Source: Methylobacterium oryzae | Lineage (GTDB): Bacteria > Pseudomonadota > Alphaproteobacteria > Rhizobiales > Beijerinckiaceae | DNA: 64,000 bases | Assembly (NCBI RefSeq): GCF_021398735.1 | Contig: NZ_CP090349.1 | Span: 2,489,001-2,553,000, forward strand | Direction: 5' to 3' | Notes under the pieces: model-generated | Told to the model about the DNA's origin: nothing | The model's input: the letters and a program-made list of their open reading frames with translations, nothing else | Database searches by the model: none | Program-made: the position numbers and the translations under genes | Part shown: positions 43,264 through 53,030 of the stretch, piece by piece | How the letters are laid out: each line of letters begins with the position of its first letter | How positions within the stretch are numbered: the first letter of the stretch is position 1

Positions 43264-44556
43264 TCAGCTCCGCTTGTCGAGCGGGCGACCGAGGAGGCGG
43301 GCGAACTCGGCCTCGATCTCCTCCACCGAGAACGGGTTGCCGGATCCCTTCGCGTCGGGCGTGGGCGCGGACGGCGGCGGCGGCGGGGGGGCCGGCACGG
43401 GCGGAGGGGGTTCGACCTTGGGCATCGCCGGCGGCGGCACGGGTTTGGCCGGAGGCGGAGGCGGAGGCGGCGGGGCCTCCGGCTCTTCGACCGGGGCGGG
43501 GGCGGGCACCGGCTCGACCGGGACGCTCGCCATCGCGGCGGCCAGCGGATCGACGCCCTCGGGCGCCGGCGGGGCGGGCGCGGACTGCGGCGGCGGCGTC
43601 ACGGCCGAGGACGAGCGCGACAGGGCGGCCTGGAGCTGCCGGGCCATGTCGGACAGGACCACCGGATCGACCGACTTGCGCTCGGAGGGCACCGCGAGGC
43701 TCGGGGCCAGACGGGCGGGCTCCGGCTCCGCCGGTGCCGGCTCGGGCTTGCGCTCGGAGGCCGGGTTGGGCCGCGGCTCGATCAGCGGCGGCGCGGTCCG
43801 GCTCAGGATCCGCCGCGGGGCGACCGGCTCGCGCGGCGGGGGCGCGGGCGGCTCCACTGCCGGCGGCGCGACCGGCGGCGACACCATCGGCGGCGGCACC
43901 ACCGGCTCGGGCGCGGGCGGCGCCGGGGGTTGAGGCGCGGGCGGCTGGGGCGGCGCTGCACTCAGAGGTGCGGTGACGTCCTGGCCGGGCTCGTCGCCGC
44001 CGAACAGCCCGGGATCGAGGGGCAGAGTCACGGGCGGAGCGGAGGCCGAGCGCGGCACCGGCGACGGCACCACCACCGGCATCGCGAAGCCCGGATCGAA
44101 CAGCGGTTCCGCGCGCCGGCCGCCAGATTCCGGCAGACCGCGGGGCGGCTCGGGCAGGCGGCCGCCCTGGACGAGGGGGTCCGGGAGCGGCTCGTCCAGC
44201 GGCTCCGGCGCCAGCTCCGGCCGGATCGCCGCCTCCGGCAGGGGCCGCTGGCCGCGCTGGATATTGCGCTCGACCACCACATCGTTGGGGCCGCCTACGA
44301 GGAGCAGGTGCTCGACATTGTCCCGGCGCAGAAGGATGAGCTGCCGGGCCCGGTCGAGCTCGTACACGTCGACGATCCCGAGCCGCGGCTGGCGCCCGCG
44401 GCTCCCGGACCGCCCCGGCAGGGCGAGGCTCCGGCCGGTGAGCCGGCGCACCGTGAACACGATCGCCGCGAGCGCCGTGAAGATGACGGCGAAGATCACG
44501 ATATACTGGACGATGGGGGAGCCGTCAGAGCCGAACACGGATTGCAGCCATCGCAA
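43264..44556 (-). CDS. fliO: FliO-type flagellar protein with long proline-rich tail
   Basis: 430-residue protein. The first 100 residues match FliO: one TM helix (about 15-37), then RRLTGRSLAL and the soluble strand region VYELDRARQLILLRRDNVEHLLLVGG. FliO helps assemble the FliP pore of the flagellar type III export apparatus, and usual FliO proteins are about 100-150 residues. Here about 310 extra residues follow, very rich in Pro/Ala/Glu, ending in a distinct motif SGNPFSVEEIEAEFARLLGRPLD. It diverges from flgB, separated by a region with two CtrA-type boxes. Confidence 0.8.
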   Translation of the reverse strand: MRWLQSVFGSDGSPIVQYIVIFAVIFTALAAIVFTVRRLTGRSLALPGRSGSRGRQPRLGIVDVYELDRARQLILLRRDNVEHLLLVGGPNDVVVERNIQRGQRPLPEAAIRPELAPEPLDEPLPDPLVQGGRLPEPPRGLPESGGRRAEPLFDPGFAMPVVVPSPVPRSASAPPVTLPLDPGLFGGDEPGQDVTAPLSAAPPQPPAPQPPAPPAPEPVVPPPMVSPPVAPPAVEPPAPPPREPVAPRRILSRTAPPLIEPRPNPASERKPEPAPAEPEPARLAPSLAVPSERKSVDPVVLSDMARQLQAALSRSSSAVTPPPQSAPAPPAPEGVDPLAAAMASVPVEPVPAPAPVEEPEAPPPPPPPPAKPVPPPAMPKVEPPPPVPAPPPPPPSAPTPDAKGSGNPFSVEEIEAEFARLLGRPLDKRS

Positions 44557-44647
44557 GATTACGCACTCGCACGTTCCGACCGCCGCGGGTGCGCGCCGGC
44601 ACGGACTTGATCCATACCACGCCGGAGGGGCGGCAAGGCAAACGACG

Positions 44648-44663
44648 TTAAGAGTTCGTTAAC
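44648..44663 (+). promoter_or_regulatory. CtrA binding box 1 (TTAA-N7-TTAAC)
   Basis: Perfect match to the CtrA consensus: TTAA at 44648-44651, seven bases GAGTTCG, TTAAC at 44659-44663. It lies 92 bases upstream of the fliO start and is likely to control fliO, or both divergent units. Confidence 0.75.
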
Positions 44664-44788
44664 AGACCTTTTAATTGAGCGCGCGCAAGACAATAGGTCG
44701 GGACTGCGCCGCCGGCCCGGCCGAACCGGGGGTTCACTCCCCCCGTGGCGCGAGCTGATGCGGGCACCGGCCGGCCCGGAGATCGGGC

Positions 44789-44804
44789 TTAACGCGCCGT
44801 TAAC
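44789..44804 (+). promoter_or_regulatory. CtrA binding box 2 (TTAA-N7-TTAAC)
   Basis: Perfect match: TTAA at 44789-44792, seven bases CGCGCCG, TTAAC at 44800-44804. It is also a palindrome (TTAACG-CGC-CGTTAA). It ends 67 bases before the flgB ATG, a normal place for an activator of the flgB operon. Confidence 0.8.
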
Positions 44805-44870
44805 CATGCAGGCGGCAGATTTTGCCGAGCCCGCTCGTCCCGGCGCGGCCACGCCATCCCGGAGGCGACC

Positions 44871-45272
44871 ATGGCCCTCACCGATCTGCCCGTGCTGAGC
44901 ATGCTGCGCACGCGGATGCAATGGGCGCAGGCGCGCCAGGGCGTGATCGCCGAGAACGTCGCCAACGCCGACATGCCGGGGTTCAAGCCCCGCGACCTCG
45001 TGGAGCCGCGCTTCGACCGGGCGACCGGCGCCCTCGCCACCAGCGGCTCCGGCCTGACGCTCACGAGCGCGGGCCACATGGCGCCGCCCGGTCAGACGGT
45101 CGGAGCCGACTCCAAGCGCGCCAAGGGCTTCGAGGTCCGGCCCAGCGGCAACGGCGTCAACCTCGAGGACGAGATGATGAAGGCCGGCGAGAACCAGGCG
45201 GACTACCAGCTCGCCGCCTCGCTGTACCAGCACAGCCTGACCACCCTGAAGATCGCGATCGGCAAGAGCTGA
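44871..45272 (+). CDS. flgB: Flagellar basal-body rod protein FlgB
   Basis: 133-residue proximal rod protein, exported through the flagellar type III system. The motif VIAENVANADMPGFKPRDL is the rod/hook N-terminal signature, and YQLAASLYQHSLTTLKIAIG the C-terminal helix. Start supported by GGAGG just upstream. First gene of a run flgB-flgC-fliE-fliQ-fliR-flhB. Confidence 0.95.
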   Translation: MALTDLPVLSMLRTRMQWAQARQGVIAENVANADMPGFKPRDLVEPRFDRATGALATSGSGLTLTSAGHMAPPGQTVGADSKRAKGFEVRPSGNGVNLEDEMMKAGENQADYQLAASLYQHSLTTLKIAIGKS

Positions 45273-45337
45273 CGCGCGACGGCCGAATGTGGAGCGCCGA
45301 CGGCCGCGGGGTCGCGGCAGCGGGAGGGTCCTGAGCC

Positions 45338-45745
45338 ATGGAATTCACGAAGTCGCTGGCGGTGGCGGCCGCGGGCCTCAAGGCCCAGTCGGGCCGGATG
45401 CGCATCATCGCCGAGAACATCGCCAACGCCGATTCCGCGCCGGCCTCCGCCGGGGCGCAGCCCTACCGCCGCAAGATCCCGACCTTCACCAGCCACCTCG
45501 ACGACGAGACCGGTGCCAAGCTCGTCGAGGCGGGGCGCGTCAGGCGCGACCCGTCGGCCTTCCGGACCAAGTACGAGCCCGGCAACCCCGCGGCCGACGC
45601 CCAGGGCGTGGTGCAGATGCCCAACGTCAACGCGCTGATCGAGAACATGGACCTGCGGGAGGCCCAGCGCTCCTACGAGGCGAACCTCAACATGATCAGT
45701 GCCACCCGCAAGATGCTGGCGCAGACCCTCGGCATCCTGAAGTGA
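45338..45745 (+). CDS. flgC: Flagellar basal-body rod protein FlgC
   Basis: 135-residue rod protein. The N-terminal signature is RIIAENIANADSAPASAG, close to the family consensus; the C-terminus ends in EANLNMISATRKMLAQTLGIL, the FlgC-type helix. Located 65 bases after flgB, as in other flagellar operons. Confidence 0.95.
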   Translation: MEFTKSLAVAAAGLKAQSGRMRIIAENIANADSAPASAGAQPYRRKIPTFTSHLDDETGAKLVEAGRVRRDPSAFRTKYEPGNPAADAQGVVQMPNVNALIENMDLREAQRSYEANLNMISATRKMLAQTLGILK

Positions 45746-45783
45746 CCCCCGAAGCCCGCGGCAGGACCGCTTAGCAAGGACGC

Positions 45784-46104
45784 ATGGCGATGGCTTCGAG
45801 CAACTTCGCGGCGGGTGCCTACGCGGCCGTCCAGGGCCTCGCCGGCGGCCGGCCCGCCCCCCGGGTGCAGCCGACGACCGGCACCGGCACCGATTTCATG
45901 CAGATGCTCGGGCAGACCCTGGACAGCGTCGGCGATGCCGGCCGTCGGGCCGATTCCCAGGCCGTCTCCGCGGCCGCCGGCAAGGCCAACGTCGTGGACG
46001 TGGTCACCGCGGTCGCCGAGAGCGAGACGGCCCTTCAGACCATGGTGGCGGTGCGCGACCGCATGATCTCCGCCTACGAGGAGATCATGCGGATGCAGAT
46101 CTGA
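45784..46104 (+). CDS. fliE: Flagellar hook-basal body complex protein FliE
   Basis: 106-residue protein that joins the MS ring to the rod. The C-terminal half is conserved (VDVVTAVAESETALQTMVAVRDRMISAYEEIMRMQI, cited in part), ending with the family's typical IxxMQI. The N-terminal part is Gly/Ala-rich. Start at 45784 or at the second ATG two codons later. Confidence 0.95.
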   Translation: MAMASSNFAAGAYAAVQGLAGGRPAPRVQPTTGTGTDFMQMLGQTLDSVGDAGRRADSQAVSAAAGKANVVDVVTAVAESETALQTMVAVRDRMISAYEEIMRMQI

Positions 46105-46152
46105 CCGGCCGACCGTTTCCCCGCCCGCTCCCCCCGCACTGAGCGCATCCCC

Positions 46153-46419
46153 ATGACCGGCCTCGCCATCCTCGACATCGCCCGCGACGGCATCTTCGTG
46201 TTCCTCAAGGTGGCCGGGCCCCTGATGCTGGTCGCGCTCGCGGTCGGCCTCGCCGTCTCCCTGGTCCAGGCCCTGACGCAGATCCAGGAACAGACGCTGA
46301 TCTACGTGCCCAAGGTCGTGGCGGTGTTCGCCGCGCTCCTGCTGATGCTGCCCTTCATGGGCGACGCCATGGCCGGCTACATGACCCGCATCGCCGCCCG
46401 CATCGCGGCCGGCGGCTGA
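46153..46419 (+). CDS. fliQ: Flagellar biosynthesis protein FliQ
   Basis: 88-residue inner-membrane component of the flagellar export gate with two TM helices. The conserved ALTQIQEQTLIYVPK loop links them. Length and layout are normal. It lies between fliE and fliR, as in the FliP-Q-R set; fliP itself is not in this window. Confidence 0.95.
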   Translation: MTGLAILDIARDGIFVFLKVAGPLMLVALAVGLAVSLVQALTQIQEQTLIYVPKVVAVFAALLLMLPFMGDAMAGYMTRIAARIAAGG

Positions 46420-46470
46420 TGCGCCCGCCGGCCGGGACAGGCGCGGCCCCCGCGTGCCATAGGGGCCGCG

Positions 46471-47232
46471 ATGAACCTGCTCCTGCCCGGCATCGCCTCG
46501 GCCTACCTGATCACCTTCGCGCGCATCGGCACGCTGATCATGCTGATGCCGGGGATCGGCGAGCAGACGGTGTCGCCGCGCCTGCGCCTCGCCTTCGCGC
46601 TGCTCACGTCCCTGGTGTTGTTCCCGACCGTGCGCCCGCTGCTCGGCGGCACGGAGGGCGTGGCCGGCCCGCGGCTGATCGGGCTCCTGTTCGGCGAGAC
46701 GATCATCGGGCTGGTGCTCGGCCTCACGGTGCGGATGATCCTCGCCGCCCTTCAGACCGCCGGGGTGATCATCTCGGCGCAGGTCGGGCTGTCCTACGCG
46801 ATGACGGTGGATCCGAGCCAGGGCGGCCAGCAGGTGGCGATCGGCAACTTCCTGTCGTTGCTCGGGATCACGCTGATCTTCGCCGCGGACCTGCACCATC
46901 TCGCCATCGAGGGCGTGGCCCGCAGCTACGTGGTGCTGCCCCCCGACGGCGTGCCGTCCTTCTCGGACGCGCTGATGCTGGCCACGAAGGCGCTGGCCCG
47001 GGGCTTCACCCTGGCGGTGCAGATCGCCGGCCCGTTCATCGCCTTCGGGATCCTGTTCAACCTGGGTCTCGGCGTGCTGTCGCGGCTGATGCCTCAGATG
47101 CAGGTGTTCTTCCTGGCGGTCCCGGCCTCGGTGCTGATCGGCATGCTGCTGCTGATGGGCTGCCTCGGCGTCATGATGGGCGTCTTCCTGGACGACCTGG
47201 GCCGGTATCTCGGGGATTACGTCGGCCGCTGA
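46471..47232 (+). CDS. fliR: Flagellar biosynthesis protein FliR
   Basis: 253-residue inner-membrane export-gate protein with about six TM helices. Conserved segments are FARIGTLIMLMPGIGEQ, QVGLSYAMTVDPSQGGQ and FILFNLGLGVLSRLMPQMQVFF-like AFGILFNLGLGVLSRLMPQ. It begins 51 bases after fliQ and is followed by flhB, its cognate partner in gating export. Confidence 0.95.
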   Translation: MNLLLPGIASAYLITFARIGTLIMLMPGIGEQTVSPRLRLAFALLTSLVLFPTVRPLLGGTEGVAGPRLIGLLFGETIIGLVLGLTVRMILAALQTAGVIISAQVGLSYAMTVDPSQGGQQVAIGNFLSLLGITLIFAADLHHLAIEGVARSYVVLPPDGVPSFSDALMLATKALARGFTLAVQIAGPFIAFGILFNLGLGVLSRLMPQMQVFFLAVPASVLIGMLLLMGCLGVMMGVFLDDLGRYLGDYVGR

Positions 47233-47285
47233 GCGGCCGGACCGCCCGTGCCCCGACGATGCCCACGCTCTGAGCCCGACGCGCG

Positions 47286-48353
47286 ATGGCCGACGATACC
47301 GACGACGAGGACAAGACCGAGGAGCCGTCCCAACGACGGCTCGATCAGGCGATCGAGCGCGGCGACGTCGCGACCAGCACCGAGATCAACACCTTCGCGA
47401 TACTGGCCGCGTTCACCCTGGCGCTGCTGGTCGCGGCCCCGACCATCGCCACGAACCTGCTGCACGGGCTCAAGGCCTACCTCGCCAACGCCCATACCCT
47501 GCCGGACGACGCCACGGCCATGAAGGCGGCCATGACGCGCGGCCTGTGGCTGTGGCTCCAGGCGGTGGCGGTGCCGGTCGGGCTGGCGGTCGTGGCCGGG
47601 CTGGCCGCGGGGCTCCTGCAGCACCCGCTGGTCTTCTCCGCCGAGACGCTGATGCCGAAATTCTCGCGCCTCTCGCCGATGGCGGGCGTGAAGCGCCTCC
47701 TCGGCGTCGAGGCCCTGTTCCAGTTCGGCAAGGGGCTGGCGAAGATCGCCGCCGTGGGCGTGGTCGGCGCGGTGATGCTGTGGAACGACCGCGACCGGCT
47801 GGAAGTGTTCGCCCAGCTGGACCCGGCCGCCTCCATGCCGGCGATCCTGTCCCTCAGCCTGAAGCTGCTCGCCGGCATGCTGTGCATGCACCTCGCGATC
47901 ACCCTCGGCGACGCGCTCTACGCGCGGTTCCGCTGGCGCAAGCGCCACCGGATGTCGAAGGAGGAGCTGAAGCAGGAGATGAAGGAGTCGGAGGGCAATC
48001 CCGAGGTGAAGGGTCGCCTGAAGCAGCTCCGGATGGCCCGGGTGAAGAAGCGCATGATGGCCGCGGTCCCCACCGCCACCGTCGTGGTGACGAACCCCAC
48101 CCACTACGCGGTGGCACTGCGCTACGAGACCGGCATGGCCGCGCCGGTCTGCGTGGCCAAGGGCGTCGACGCGCTCGCCCTGCGCATCCGCGCGGTGGCG
48201 GCCGAGCACGGGGTCGCGGTGATCGAGAACCCGCCGCTCGCCCGGGCGCTCCACGCCACCGTGGAGATCGACCGGGAGATCCCGGCCGAGCACTACCGCG
48301 CGGTGGCGGAGGTCATCGGGTTCGTGCTGCGCCTGCGGAGACGGGCGGCGTAG
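47286..48353 (+). CDS. flhB: Flagellar biosynthesis protein FlhB
   Basis: 355-residue export-gate protein controlling the switch from rod/hook to filament export. N-terminal DEDKTEEPSQRRLDQA is typical. Four TM helices follow, then the cytoplasmic domain with the autocleavage motif NPTH at residues 270-273 (VTNPTHYAVAL) and the ending FVLRLRRR. All key features are intact. Last structural gene of the flagellar run before cckA. Confidence 0.96.
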   Translation: MADDTDDEDKTEEPSQRRLDQAIERGDVATSTEINTFAILAAFTLALLVAAPTIATNLLHGLKAYLANAHTLPDDATAMKAAMTRGLWLWLQAVAVPVGLAVVAGLAAGLLQHPLVFSAETLMPKFSRLSPMAGVKRLLGVEALFQFGKGLAKIAAVGVVGAVMLWNDRDRLEVFAQLDPAASMPAILSLSLKLLAGMLCMHLAITLGDALYARFRWRKRHRMSKEELKQEMKESEGNPEVKGRLKQLRMARVKKRMMAAVPTATVVVTNPTHYAVALRYETGMAAPVCVAKGVDALALRIRAVAAEHGVAVIENPPLARALHATVEIDREIPAEHYRAVAEVIGFVLRLRRRAA

Positions 48354-48523
48354 CCCCGCGCGATCCGCGCGCCGCGCCGTCTCGCCGAACGCCCGGTGGG
48401 GCGAAAGCCACGCTTCCTCCACCTTTTTTCGCGAGGCTGTGTCAAGGCTTGGCGCGACGAGACTGATGCCGCGCCCCGCATGTCCTGATATGGCCGGCGG
48501 ACTAACCGGGTGACTGTTCTGGA

Positions 48524-51328
48524 ATGAAGCCGATGGCCGACGTCACTGGACCTCCGGCGCCCGCCGCGGGCCCGCAGAATTCGGGTCCCCCGGTCGCGCA
48601 GGCCTCGTCCCTGCTGGGAACGGGCTCGATCGACCGCTCGGAACAGCCGGGCCGGGTCGGCCTGCTCCTCGTGCTCGCCGGCCTGCTGGTCGGCGCGGCC
48701 ATCGGCCTGTCCTTCGTGGCCAACGAGCAGGCCCAGTCGCTGATCGTCTGGCTGCTGGCCCTGCTGGCCATGGCGGGCGTGTTCTTCCTGTTCGCCCTCG
48801 CCATCGGGGCGCTCCAGCTCAGCGGCAGCGCCGCCCGGGACGACATCACCAAGGGCATCGTCGACGCCTCGCCGGACGGCCAGCTGGTCGTCGAGGACGG
48901 CGGCCGGCTGATCTACGCCAACGAGGCCTATCTCCGGATCGCCAGCGGCGACACCTTCTCCAACCTCGTGCCGGTGGAGCGCATCCTCGTCGGCTCGCCG
49001 GAGGTCTCCGAGGCGGTCTACCGCCTGTCGCAGGCCTCACGCGACGCCCGGGCCCACACCGAGGAGGTGCGGATGTCGCCGCCCCTCGGCCCCACGGCCG
49101 GCGAGCGCGGCTTCGGCTGGTACCGGGTCTCGGTGCGGCCCCTCGCGCGCCCGCGCCGGTCGGCCTCCCTCTGGACGGTGGCCGACATCACTGCCGAGCG
49201 GGAGCGGCAGGAGAACGTCTTCCAGGAGCTCCAGCACGCCATCGACTACCTCGACCACGCCCCGGCGGGCTTCCTGTCGATCGATCCGGCGGGCGCCATC
49301 GTCTACATGAACGCGACCCTGGCGGCCTGGCTCGGCTACGACCTCGCCAGCGTCGGCCCCGGCGGCCCGCACCTCACCGAGATCGCCCCGGAGGCGGACG
49401 TGCTGGTGCGCACGGCCGGCCTGCCGGGCGAGGTCCGCACCGACCGCTTCGACCTCGACCTGCGCCGCCGCAACGGTCACACCCTGCCGGTCCGGCTCTA
49501 CCACCGGGTCGCCTTCGGCAAGGACGGCAAGCCCGGCTCGTCGCGGACCTTCGTGATCAACCGCTCCGCCGGGGCCGAGACCGACGAGCCGCAGCGCGCC
49601 GCCGAGGTCCGGCTCGCCCGCTTCCTCAACAACTCGCCGATCGCCATCGCGACCCTCGACAGCGGCGGCCGGATCGCCCGCGCCAACGCCTCGTTCACGC
49701 GCCTGTTCGGCACGGTCCCGCGGCAGGCCGACGACGGCGCCCCGGACGGGGAGGGTGTCCCGCGGGTCGAGCCCAACGTCGCCGACTCGGTGGCCGACCG
49801 GACCGCCCTGGAGGCCGGGCTCGCCCGCGCCGCGAGCGGGCGGACGGATCCGGAGCCCATCGAGGTCCAGCTCAACGGGCCCGGCGGCCGCTCGGCCCGG
49901 GTCTGGCTCAGCCCGGCCGACGGCGGCGATGCCGGCCAGCAGACCGACGAGGCCGAGCGGGTGATCCTCTACGCCCTCGACACGACGGCGCAGCGCCAGC
50001 TGGAGCAGCAGGTCGCCCAGGCCCAGAAAATGAACGCGGTCGGCCAGCTCGCCGGCGGCATCGCGCACGACTTCAACAACGTCCTGCAGGCGATCATCGG
50101 CTACTCGGACCTGCTGCTCGCGAGCCACCGGCCGACCGACCCGGCCTTCCAGGACATCATGCAGATCAAGCAGAACGCCAACCGGGCGGCGGGCCTCGTC
50201 CGCCAGCTCCTGGCGTTCTCCCGCCGGCAGACGCTGCGCCCGGAGGTGATGAATGTCGGGGAGGCGCTCTCCGAGCTGACCCTCCTCCTCAAGCGGCTGC
50301 TCGGCGAGCGCGTCGCGCTGGAGCTGAAGCACGGCCGCGAGGTCTGGCCCGTGAAGGCCGACGTCAACCAGTTCGAGCAGGTGATCGTCAATCTGGCGGT
50401 CAACGCCCGCGACGCCATGCCGGAGGGCGGCAAGCTGATGATCCGCACCGAGAACGTCTCCGATCCGGGGGCGGCCGCCGGGGCGGAGGGGCGCGGTGGG
50501 GCGCCGGCGGGCGACCACGTGCTGATCGAGGTGCGCGACACCGGCCAGGGCATCCCGCCCGAGCTGATGGAGAAGATCTTCGAGCCGTTTTTCACCACCA
50601 AGGAGATCGGCAAGGGCACCGGCCTCGGGCTCTCGACGGTGTTCGGCATCGTCAAGCAGTCCGGCGGCACCATCGACGTGCAGTCGAAGGTCGGGGAGGG
50701 CACGGCCTTCCGCATCTACCTGCCGCGTCACGTGCCCGTGGCGGAGCCCGAGGAGGTGCCGGTCGCGGCCGCCGAGCCGGCACTTCCGCGCGCGGAGCCG
50801 CTCGCGCCGGCTTCCACCACCGCCCATCCCGATTCCGGGTCGGACGCCAAGCCGGTCACCGCGCCGGCCGCGGGCGGCGACGCCGCTGTGCCGAACGGGA
50901 AGACGCCGCCCGCCAAGGTCGACAAGCCGGCGCCGCGCAAGCCCGCCGCCGATCATACGGGGCAGGGGACCATCCTGCTCGTCGAGGACGAGGACCCGGT
51001 GCGGGCGGTCAACAGCCGGGCGCTCTCGGCCCGCGGCTACACGGTGCTGGAGGCGGCCTCGGGCCTCGAGGCCCTGGCGATCGTCCGCGAGGGCGCGCAG
51101 ACCATCGATCTCGTCGTCTCCGACGTGGTCATGCCCGAGATGGACGGCCCGACGCTCCTGCGGGAGGTGCGCAAGCATCAGCCCGACCTGAAGGTGATCT
51201 TCGTGTCCGGCTACGCCGAGGACGCGTTCCGCAAGAACCTGCCCGAGGGCGAGACCTTCAACTTCCTGCCCAAGCCCTTCAGCCTGAAGCAGCTCGTCGA
51301 GACCGTGAAGAAGACGATGGCGGACTGA
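48524..51328 (+). CDS. cckA: Hybrid histidine kinase CckA
   Basis: 934-residue membrane-bound hybrid kinase that (through ChpT) phosphorylates the master regulator CtrA in Alphaproteobacteria. Two TM helices lie at about residues 45-66 and 73-97, then PAS-type sensor domains to about 480, a HisKA domain with His515 in the signature GGIAHDFNN, HATPase with [13 protein letters not shown], and a C-terminal receiver with Asp867 ([12 protein letters not shown]). A 90-residue Pro/Ala linker separates HATPase and receiver. The ATG at 48524 or the one at 48533 may be used. The REC and HisKA sequences match CckA by recall. Confidence 0.92.
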
Positions 51329-51366
51329 CCGGCCCCTCGCTTCCGCTCACCGTCGCTCAACGAAGA

Positions 51367-51393
51367 GCGGCCCCGGAGAGACTCCGGGGCCGC
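51367..51393. terminator. Hairpin between convergent cckA and recA
   Basis: A perfect 11-bp stem (GCGGCCCCGGA / TCCGGGGCCGC) with loop GAGAC, 38 bases after the cckA stop and 59 bases before the recA stop codon. T-rich sequence follows only weakly on either strand, so it is likely a bidirectional terminator without a classical T-run. Confidence 0.55.
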
Positions 51394-51451
51394 GCATCTT
51401 CGAACGTCGCCAAGTCCGCCGCGCGCCGTCGCCGGCCCGCGGCGGCGCGGC

Positions 51452-52543
<1,092 letters not shown>

Positions 52544-53030
52544 CTGGCGGGCTCCTTATGAAGGGGTTGGACGCAGTTCACAACGCGCGTCGCCACCGCC
52601 TTTATGTACCCGTTTTGTTCTCAGCCAGCAAGGCCGGAACGCCGTTTTGCTGGACGCAAGTCACGAAATCCCGGCTCGAGCCCCGGATGCCCCGCGACAG
52701 CAATCCAATCCGGTAATCGCCCGCGAGGACCCGTACGAACGCCGACACAACGCGCCGGGACGGGACGACCGCCAGCCGCAATGGCGACGCCTCCCGCGGT
52801 CCCGCAGCAGGCTCGGCCCGCCGGCGACCAGGACCCAACCGCCAGACATGCCGCCGAAAACGACGACGCCCGGCACGAATCCGGCTCTCGCGAGTCGAAT
52901 TGCGTCCGGGCGTTCGTCGTACCGGTCGCCGGGCATCCCCGGGATGGTCACCCCAAAGGAGGCACCATCCCGCGACGCCGCGGGCCGGGATCTGGCGGAC
53001 GCGGAGACCGCAGCCGCCGGGATCCCGGGA
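52544..53030. other. Gene-free stretch between recA and rpsQ
   Basis: 487 bases. The first 100 carry the recA promoter region with the candidate SOS box; the remainder shows no convincing gene on either strand. It occupies the place where the spc ribosomal genes would normally follow rpsQ. Confidence 0.6.
52606..52620 (-). promoter_or_regulatory. Candidate LexA (SOS) box upstream of recA
   Basis: The minus strand reads GAAC-N7-GTAC, one mismatch from the alphaproteobacterial LexA site GAAC-N7-GAAC (equivalently GTTC-N7-GTTC). It lies 63 bases upstream of the recA ATG, between a possible -35 (TTGCTG) and -10 (TACATA), so LexA bound here would block the promoter. Confidence 0.55.

Follow-up and report, generated by a model that had tools for sequence, protein, structure and literature searches.

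The window analysed here is a 64-kb stretch of DNA carrying a flagellar gene cluster, in which a fliO-like gene stands divergent to a run of forward-strand genes that begins with flgB, continues with flgC, fliE, fliQ, fliR and flhB, and ends with cckA (Table 1). All seven genes of this run have family support. A sequence-only reading of this DNA had assigned the labels fliO, flgB and cckA, and had placed cckA 3.7 kb downstream of flgB in the same run. The flgB and cckA labels are upheld by scores above the family cut-offs, and cckA begins 3.65 kb past the flgB start on the same strand. The fliO label was not upheld to the same degree, as the gene product scored 13.5 bits against PF04347, below the cut-off of 22; we refer to the gene as fliO-like. 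A relative of it stands divergent to flgB in most loci examined. The genome also encodes CtrA (NF045991, 421.8 bits, cut-off 350), FlbD (797.7 bits, cut-off 750), FliX and RpoN.

Table 1. Features of the fliO-flgB-cckA region, in window coordinates.
Feature	Position	Strand	Basis or remark
fliO-like gene	43264..44556	-	FliO by position; no family match at 1e-3
TGnTAt block, probable -10 of fliO-side promoter	44614..44619	-	predicted from genus sequences by eye
Conserved TTTGCC block, 4 nt past fliO-side box	44637..44642	-	predicted from genus sequences by eye
fliO-side CtrA box, symmetric GTTAA-N7-TTAAC	44647..44663	-	exact pattern match
Degenerate third box overlapping fliO-side box, spacing 8	44658..44674	.	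exact spacing 7 in some close relatives
flgB CtrA box TTAACGCGCCGTTAAC, then CAT	44789..44804	+	exact pattern match
Dyad GGCA-N5-TGCC, proposed FlbD (ftr-like) site over predicted -10 of flgB	44814..44826	+	conservation
Predicted flgB transcription start	44828	+	R. sphaeroides fla2 rule, from a passage of PMC6180460
flgB	44871..45272	+	NF004654, 174 bits, cut-off 142
flgC	45338..45745	+	TIGR01395
fliE	45784..46104	+	TIGR00205
fliQ	46153..46419	+	TIGR01402
fliR	46471..47232	+	TIGR01400
flhB	47286..48353	+	TIGR00328
flhB-cckA gap	48354..48523	+	no CtrA box; partial match to block kept in many genus members
cckA	48524..51328	+	NF046020 (NCBIfam CckA), 1114 bits, cut-off 1000

Two exact copies of the CtrA box TTAA-N7-TTAAC had been reported at 44648-44663 and 44789-44804, and both are present at these positions. 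In the window this pattern gives three strand matches at two places, both between the fliO-like gene and flgB, and 100 dinucleotide shuffles of the window yielded none. The fliO-side box is part of a symmetric 17-mer, GTTAAGAGTTCGTTAAC, that is read on both strands. The flgB box with the following CAT gives TTAACCAT, which a passage of PMC6180460 names as a variant for Caulobacter CtrA. The box itself, without CAT, ends 66 nt short of the flgB ATG.

Over the 6.65-Mb genome, a search for TTAA-N{0,20}-TTAAC returned 71 rows, of which 34 (28 places) have spacing 7 and 37 are shared among the other 20 spacings. Since the reversed-pattern control returned 91 rows over all spacings, it is the spacing alone that is enriched and not the word pair. 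This is the result of the whole-genome scan that the sequence-only reading had called for. A small excess was also seen at spacing 20 (7 rows) and at spacing 13 (6 rows). The fliO-flgB region is the sole intergenic region in the genome-wide list with two exact spacing-7 places. Outside the window there are 26 spacing-7 places, none of them within a called gene; however, the ten other-spacing sites examined (those among the 30 loci returned) are all intergenic as well, and intergenic location was dropped as evidence for this reason. Position relative to gene starts, as given by a simple gene caller, differed between the groups: 17/26 spacing-7 places outside the window sit 25-100 nt before a called start, compared with 2/10 other-spacing sites within 120 nt before one. 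Genes beside spacing-7 places (30 proteins scanned) include flagellin, fliL, flgF, a lytic transglycosylase, a ParA-like ATPase, a hybrid kinase and a hemE / kinase-pyrophosphorylase pair. The boxes might in principle be chance AT-rich words, which do cluster between genes in this genome (the window is 70% GC), as the intergenic control sites illustrate. However, the confinement of the enrichment to spacing 7 and the conservation of the box across the order speak against chance, and the spacing control contradicts it, making this explanation extremely improbable.

Conservation of the flgB box was assessed in three sets of loci. In the genus, a full-length FlgB match was found in 58/59 genomes, the window's own included, with a distant match only in the remaining genome (G015). 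The exact flgB box is present in 56 of these 58 loci, 43-100 nt before the flgB start, and its columns in the genus alignment are invariant, bar one at 97%. A survey of the order found a FlgB match in 110/150 genomes: two of the same genus, 86 with the same type of FlgB (E at most 3.7e-20) and 22 with a distant type only. Of the 28 best-matching loci from other genera of the order, 25 have an exact box no more than 350 nt from flgB; in these 28 loci together with one genus locus, 27 matches have spacing 7 and 26 are distributed over the other 20 spacings. The third set, named loci from Methylobacterium, Methylorubrum, Bradyrhizobium, Rhodopseudomonas, Afipia, Bosea and others, gave an exact box within 400 nt of flgB in 76/80 loci (the best 80 of 526), and 84 matches at spacing 7 against 10 at the other 20 spacings in these same best 80, counts that do not represent independent trials since all of the sets consist of best FlgB matches that are mutually related and may overlap.

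The two boxes behave differently where the fliO-flgB gap widens among genus members. The distal box keeps a distance of approximately 95-107 nt from the start of the fliO match, whereas the proximal box moves with flgB, so that the two boxes belong to two promoters. Read on the fliO strand, the distal box has the form TTAACGAN4TTAA, found within 1300 nt of flgB in 41/58 genus loci, and further along that strand come TTGCC and TGnTA blocks judged by eye to be conserved; this exact form of the box is rarer outside the genus (7/28 and 5/20 order loci, 16/80 named loci). In a subgroup of close relatives (L067, L071-L076) the third box that overlaps the fliO-side box is exact, with spacing 7. From these sequence comparisons, the boxes appear as one per divergent promoter and not as a double site for flgB. 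The claim that CtrA controls the fliO-flgB region is thus retained in altered form: the spacing enrichment, the presence of a ctrA gene and the conservation of the flgB box, all of them sequence evidence, make such control well supported, but the two boxes do not form a pair for flgB.

A second conserved site, which the sequence-only reading had not mentioned, adjoins the flgB box. The genus alignment contains a further conserved block, CGGCAGATTTTGCC, from -58 to -45 relative to the flgB start (columns 71-100%), which corresponds to the dyad GGCA-N5-TGCC, beginning 9 nt past the box. The dyad occurs within 250 nt upstream of flgB in 58/58 genus, 25/28 order and 73/80 named loci, and each of the other half-site spacings from 0 to 12 was found in at most three regions per set. 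An exact dyad directly follows an exact box in 56/58, 17/28, 15/20 and 67/80 loci, leaving 11 of the 28 order loci without this combination. In all of these the dyad follows TTAAC after 9 nt, apart from four loci, two in the order set of 28 and two in the named set, where it follows after 8 nt. A second GGCA-N5-TGCC, toward fliO, is present in 14/28 order loci (L120-L122, L125-L129, L132, L134, L136, L142, L143, L146).

The position of the dyad can be related to a predicted flgB transcription start. According to passages of PMC6180460, measured starts in R. sphaeroides lie 23-24 nt after the CtrA box, at a purine, with an invariant A at -11 and an invariant G at -4. Applied here, this rule predicts a start at an A 23 nt past the flgB box, with A at -11 (44817) and G at -4 (44824), and the position of the box relative to this predicted start matches the R. 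sphaeroides geometry. Since the A of GGCA is at -11 and the G of TGCC at -4, the dyad covers the predicted -10. A scan of 44300-52600 for consensus sigma-70 promoters gave none. Genome-wide, the flgB form of the dyad, GGCANNTTTTGCC, was not enriched at one mismatch (37 matches, 48 in the reversed control); the box-plus-dyad pattern at up to three mismatches gave 790 matches against 1135 in the control, a comparison given no weight as the list lacks the window's own exact copy.

The dyad resembles a shortened sigma-54 -24/-12 element, and a sigma-54 promoter at flgB was considered. The sigma-54 consensus has GG and GC 12 positions apart; in the dyad they are 10 apart. As no proper site was detected either, this candidate was rejected. 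The best -24/-12 element upstream of flgB on its own strand has 5 of 12 consensus bases, which does not place flgB in class III. In the relatives, a sigma-54-like site at flgB was found in 1/58, 1/28 and 2/80 loci, which does not exceed the frequency in shuffled sequence (25/290, 6/140 and 21/400).

Other flagellar genes of the same genome carry the dyad in a different setting. It is present upstream of flgI (facing fliX), flgF (facing fliL) and flgE, in each case with a sigma-54-like site following 87-111 bp downstream on the gene's own strand; these sites have 10, 11 and 10, respectively, of the 12 consensus bases. The flgI arrangement is common in the order: among 25 fliX-flgI regions, the dyad is present in 22 and a sigma-54-like site (at least 9 of 12) in 23, compared with 47/500 shuffled regions. 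The dyad and the site are separated by 87-132 bp, with one case at 166. Both regions that lack a sigma-54-like site also lack the dyad, and in a single further region the site is present but no exact dyad. Lying about 100 bp upstream of these sites, the dyad is placed as an enhancer bound by a sigma-54 activator would be.

Beyond the order, flgI regions have the dyad in 22/29 cases and the sigma-54-like site in 27/29 (one of 30 loci lacked flgI), and a further class-level set has them in 7/12 and 12/12. The exact dyad is thus absent from 12/41 class-level flgI regions (7/29 and 5/12). A sigma-54-like site is nevertheless present in ten of these twelve, which points either to a variable site or to a link that does not hold generally. 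A Caulobacter-like genome (G269) has the dyad only in a one-mismatch form. At flgE, a class-level search with the Caulobacter hook-protein model found no dyad within 1.1 kb upstream of the match in 16 loci; two of these loci have one approximately 1.16 kb upstream, and only one locus scored above the model cut-off. In 8/29 class-level flgI regions (L384, L392, L395, L397, L401, L405, L411, L412) the dyad is doubled, with copies 18-32 nt apart.

These observations suggest FlbD as the most likely protein to bind the dyad, on the basis of position and co-occurrence. Passages of PMC3930126, PMC7064773 and PMC3096577 describe Caulobacter FlbD as an activator of genes for rod and hook that also represses fliF, an early gene, via ftr4. 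As flgB has the dyad without a sigma-54 site, it resembles fliF and not a class III gene. The dyad beside the flgB box is probably a site through which another flagellar regulator switches flgB off. Alternatively, the dyad could be a mere part of the flgB core promoter, or the site of a regulator other than FlbD. It holds the A at -11 and the G at -4 that are invariant in R. sphaeroides promoters, and passages of PMC6180460 describe FlbD as absent from R. sphaeroides, both of which would fit a core element. However, its outer arms are conserved as well, the same dyad stands at enhancer distance from the sigma-54-like sites of flgI, and FliX accompanies this flgB type in 85/88 order genomes, against 0/20 where only another type is present; we consider this alternative unlikely.

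Based on the boxes and dyad, their spacing and conservation, the regulator genes and the sigma-54-like sites, all of which are seen in the sequence, we infer CtrA binding, activation rather than repression of flgB, and FlbD as both the binder of the dyad and a repressor. We propose as the likely arrangement two divergent flagellar promoters with one CtrA box apiece, in which flgB would be activated by CtrA and repressed by FlbD through the dyad, as is Caulobacter fliF. Phosphorylated CtrA over the -35 region would activate the flgBC-fliE-fliQR-flhB operon, and CtrA at the other box would control the fliO-like gene. After assembly of the early flagellum, FlbD on the dyad would shut flgB down, acting through FliX, and would switch on the genes for rod, ring and hook from copies of the dyad that stand some 100 bp ahead of their sigma-54 promoters. 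Against this arrangement speak the lack of genome-wide enrichment of the flgB form of the dyad, the order loci and class-level flgI regions in which the exact dyad is missing, and the reports on flgB in C. crescentus, S. meliloti and Methylosinus sporium given below. In this scheme cckA, at the end of the cluster, is an old neighbour that may share the transcript.

The closest precedents each differ from the proposed arrangement. Passages of PMC6180460 describe the C. crescentus fliO-flgB pair as divergent with a CtrA site between the genes, as here. However, in that species one shared site serves both, with fliO activated and flgB repressed by CtrA, whereas here there is a box per promoter and flgB is probably activated. 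The Caulobacter logic could nevertheless hold at this locus too, given the same gene pair with a CtrA site. This appears quite improbable, since a separate box serves flgB, spaced from the predicted start like a -35 element and not over the -10, and flgB has no sigma-54 promoter here and next to none in the relatives. In R. sphaeroides flgB2-fliI2, flgB again stands on one side: the same source reports two independent CtrA sites there, supported by mutagenesis for the two-site arrangement and by ChIP for the region, and activation of flgB2 by CtrA with the box-to-start geometry predicted here. The differences are the partner gene, fliI, a half-site spacing of 6, and the reported absence of FlbD from that group.

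For the proposed combination of activation and repression the precedent is C. crescentus fliF with ftr4, which passages of PMC3930126 and PMC3096577 describe as an early promoter activated by CtrA and repressed by FlbD. The flgB region has a CtrA box, a dyad over the predicted core promoter and no sigma-54 site, and would be of this type if the dyad is an FlbD sequence. The target differs: here it would be flgB of the rod operon, and in Caulobacter most rod genes depend on FlbD and RpoN, according to a passage of PMC6180460. In S. meliloti, flgB is listed as an indirect CtrA target in a portion of PMC4433202. A passage of PMC12403871 on Methylosinus sporium reports as novel a motif, Motif 3, that is found in core promoters including those of flgB, flgF and flgE, is enriched at flgB and is listed apart from the CtrA motif. 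That Motif 3 is the dyad is a guess. The dyad is in this sense a candidate explanation for a Methylosinus motif that the passage reports without an identity. In the titles, abstract openings and passages that were searched, which included few subscription papers, no CtrA box with a dyad at flgB was recognised, which is weak evidence of novelty. The CtrA-type divergent promoter pair is genuine, conserved and of a known kind; its combination of a CtrA box with a probable FlbD site at flgB is a variant. By simple sequence evidence, many Alphaproteobacteria associated with soil and plants have a CtrA-plus-dyad promoter at their first rod operon, unlike the wiring reported for Caulobacter. The flgB promoter offers a concrete site for studying how flagellar expression order was rewired and any feedback of assembly on the CckA-CtrA pathway.

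The sequence-only reading had further proposed that cckA, encoding the kinase that feeds phosphate to CtrA, forms a compact regulatory loop with a CtrA target promoter in the same locus. Linkage of the two genes is widespread: in 75/86 order genomes with the same FlgB type, cckA follows flgB on the same strand at a distance of 3.4-7.0 kb, inside the 10-kb limit applied. In the remaining 11 the genes are on different contigs (7), no cckA match was found at the limit used (3), or the distance is 12.6 kb (1). Linkage was seen in 0/20 genomes with the other flgB type, a count that leaves out two more of the 22 that have no cckA match, and in 28/28 genus loci of sufficient length and 74/75 named loci. 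The order flgB-flgC-fliE-fliQ-fliR-flhB-cckA is kept in 20/20 order loci, with a divergent fliO match in 19/20. Such preservation of gene order identifies the linkage as old inherited synteny, and according to passages of PMC12363192, flagellar genes of Rhodospirillum rubrum also have phosphorelay genes nearby.

We found no TTAA-N7-TTAA in the flhB-cckA gap of the window, of 28 genus loci or of 20 order loci, so that CtrA could reach cckA only by read-through over six genes. The compact loop as first described is not shown by these results. A loop by read-through, in which the CtrA-activated flgB transcript extends into cckA and CtrA raises its own activating kinase, is possible but unproven, and we regard it as doubtful. 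It would be helped by the common strand, by a 170-nt gap in which neither a terminator-like nor a sigma-70-consensus site was found, by the preserved linkage, and by the prediction of CtrA control of cckA in Rhodobacterales given in a passage of PMC2877005. However, in addition to its lack of a CtrA box, the flhB-cckA gap is the widest of the cluster and is partly conserved in many genus members, which suggests that cckA has a promoter of its own, and approximately 3 kb separates flhB and cckA in 2/20 loci. A more far-reaching version, in which CtrA activation and FlbD/FliX repression of flgB hold across the order, the transcript reaches cckA, and expression of the CtrA-driving kinase falls once the early flagellum is complete, is speculative and improbable. 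If true, flagellar assembly would act back on the cell cycle via one conserved promoter, as a checkpoint.

The flhB-cckA gap of the window partly matches a block kept in many genus members (L091-L111), which resembles CCACGG-TTTATGCACC-TTTTTTCGCGAGA. Within the gap, TTATGCACC/TTATCCACC is DnaA-box-like in relatives and degenerate in the window.

Two further observations concern CtrA-type sites elsewhere in the genome. A spacing-7 box lies between hemE (URO-D) and the kinase-pyrophosphorylase gene (L032 2345-2843, G000:C1 near 365432), a gene pair that flanks the Caulobacter replication origin. Exact TTATNCACA is absent from this locus; it is possible that the box marks a CtrA-bound origin. Approximately 110 nt upstream of the ctrA match in this genome, TTAATCGTTAAC (spacing 3) is present at G000:C1:1454579-1454590, where autoregulation is possible.
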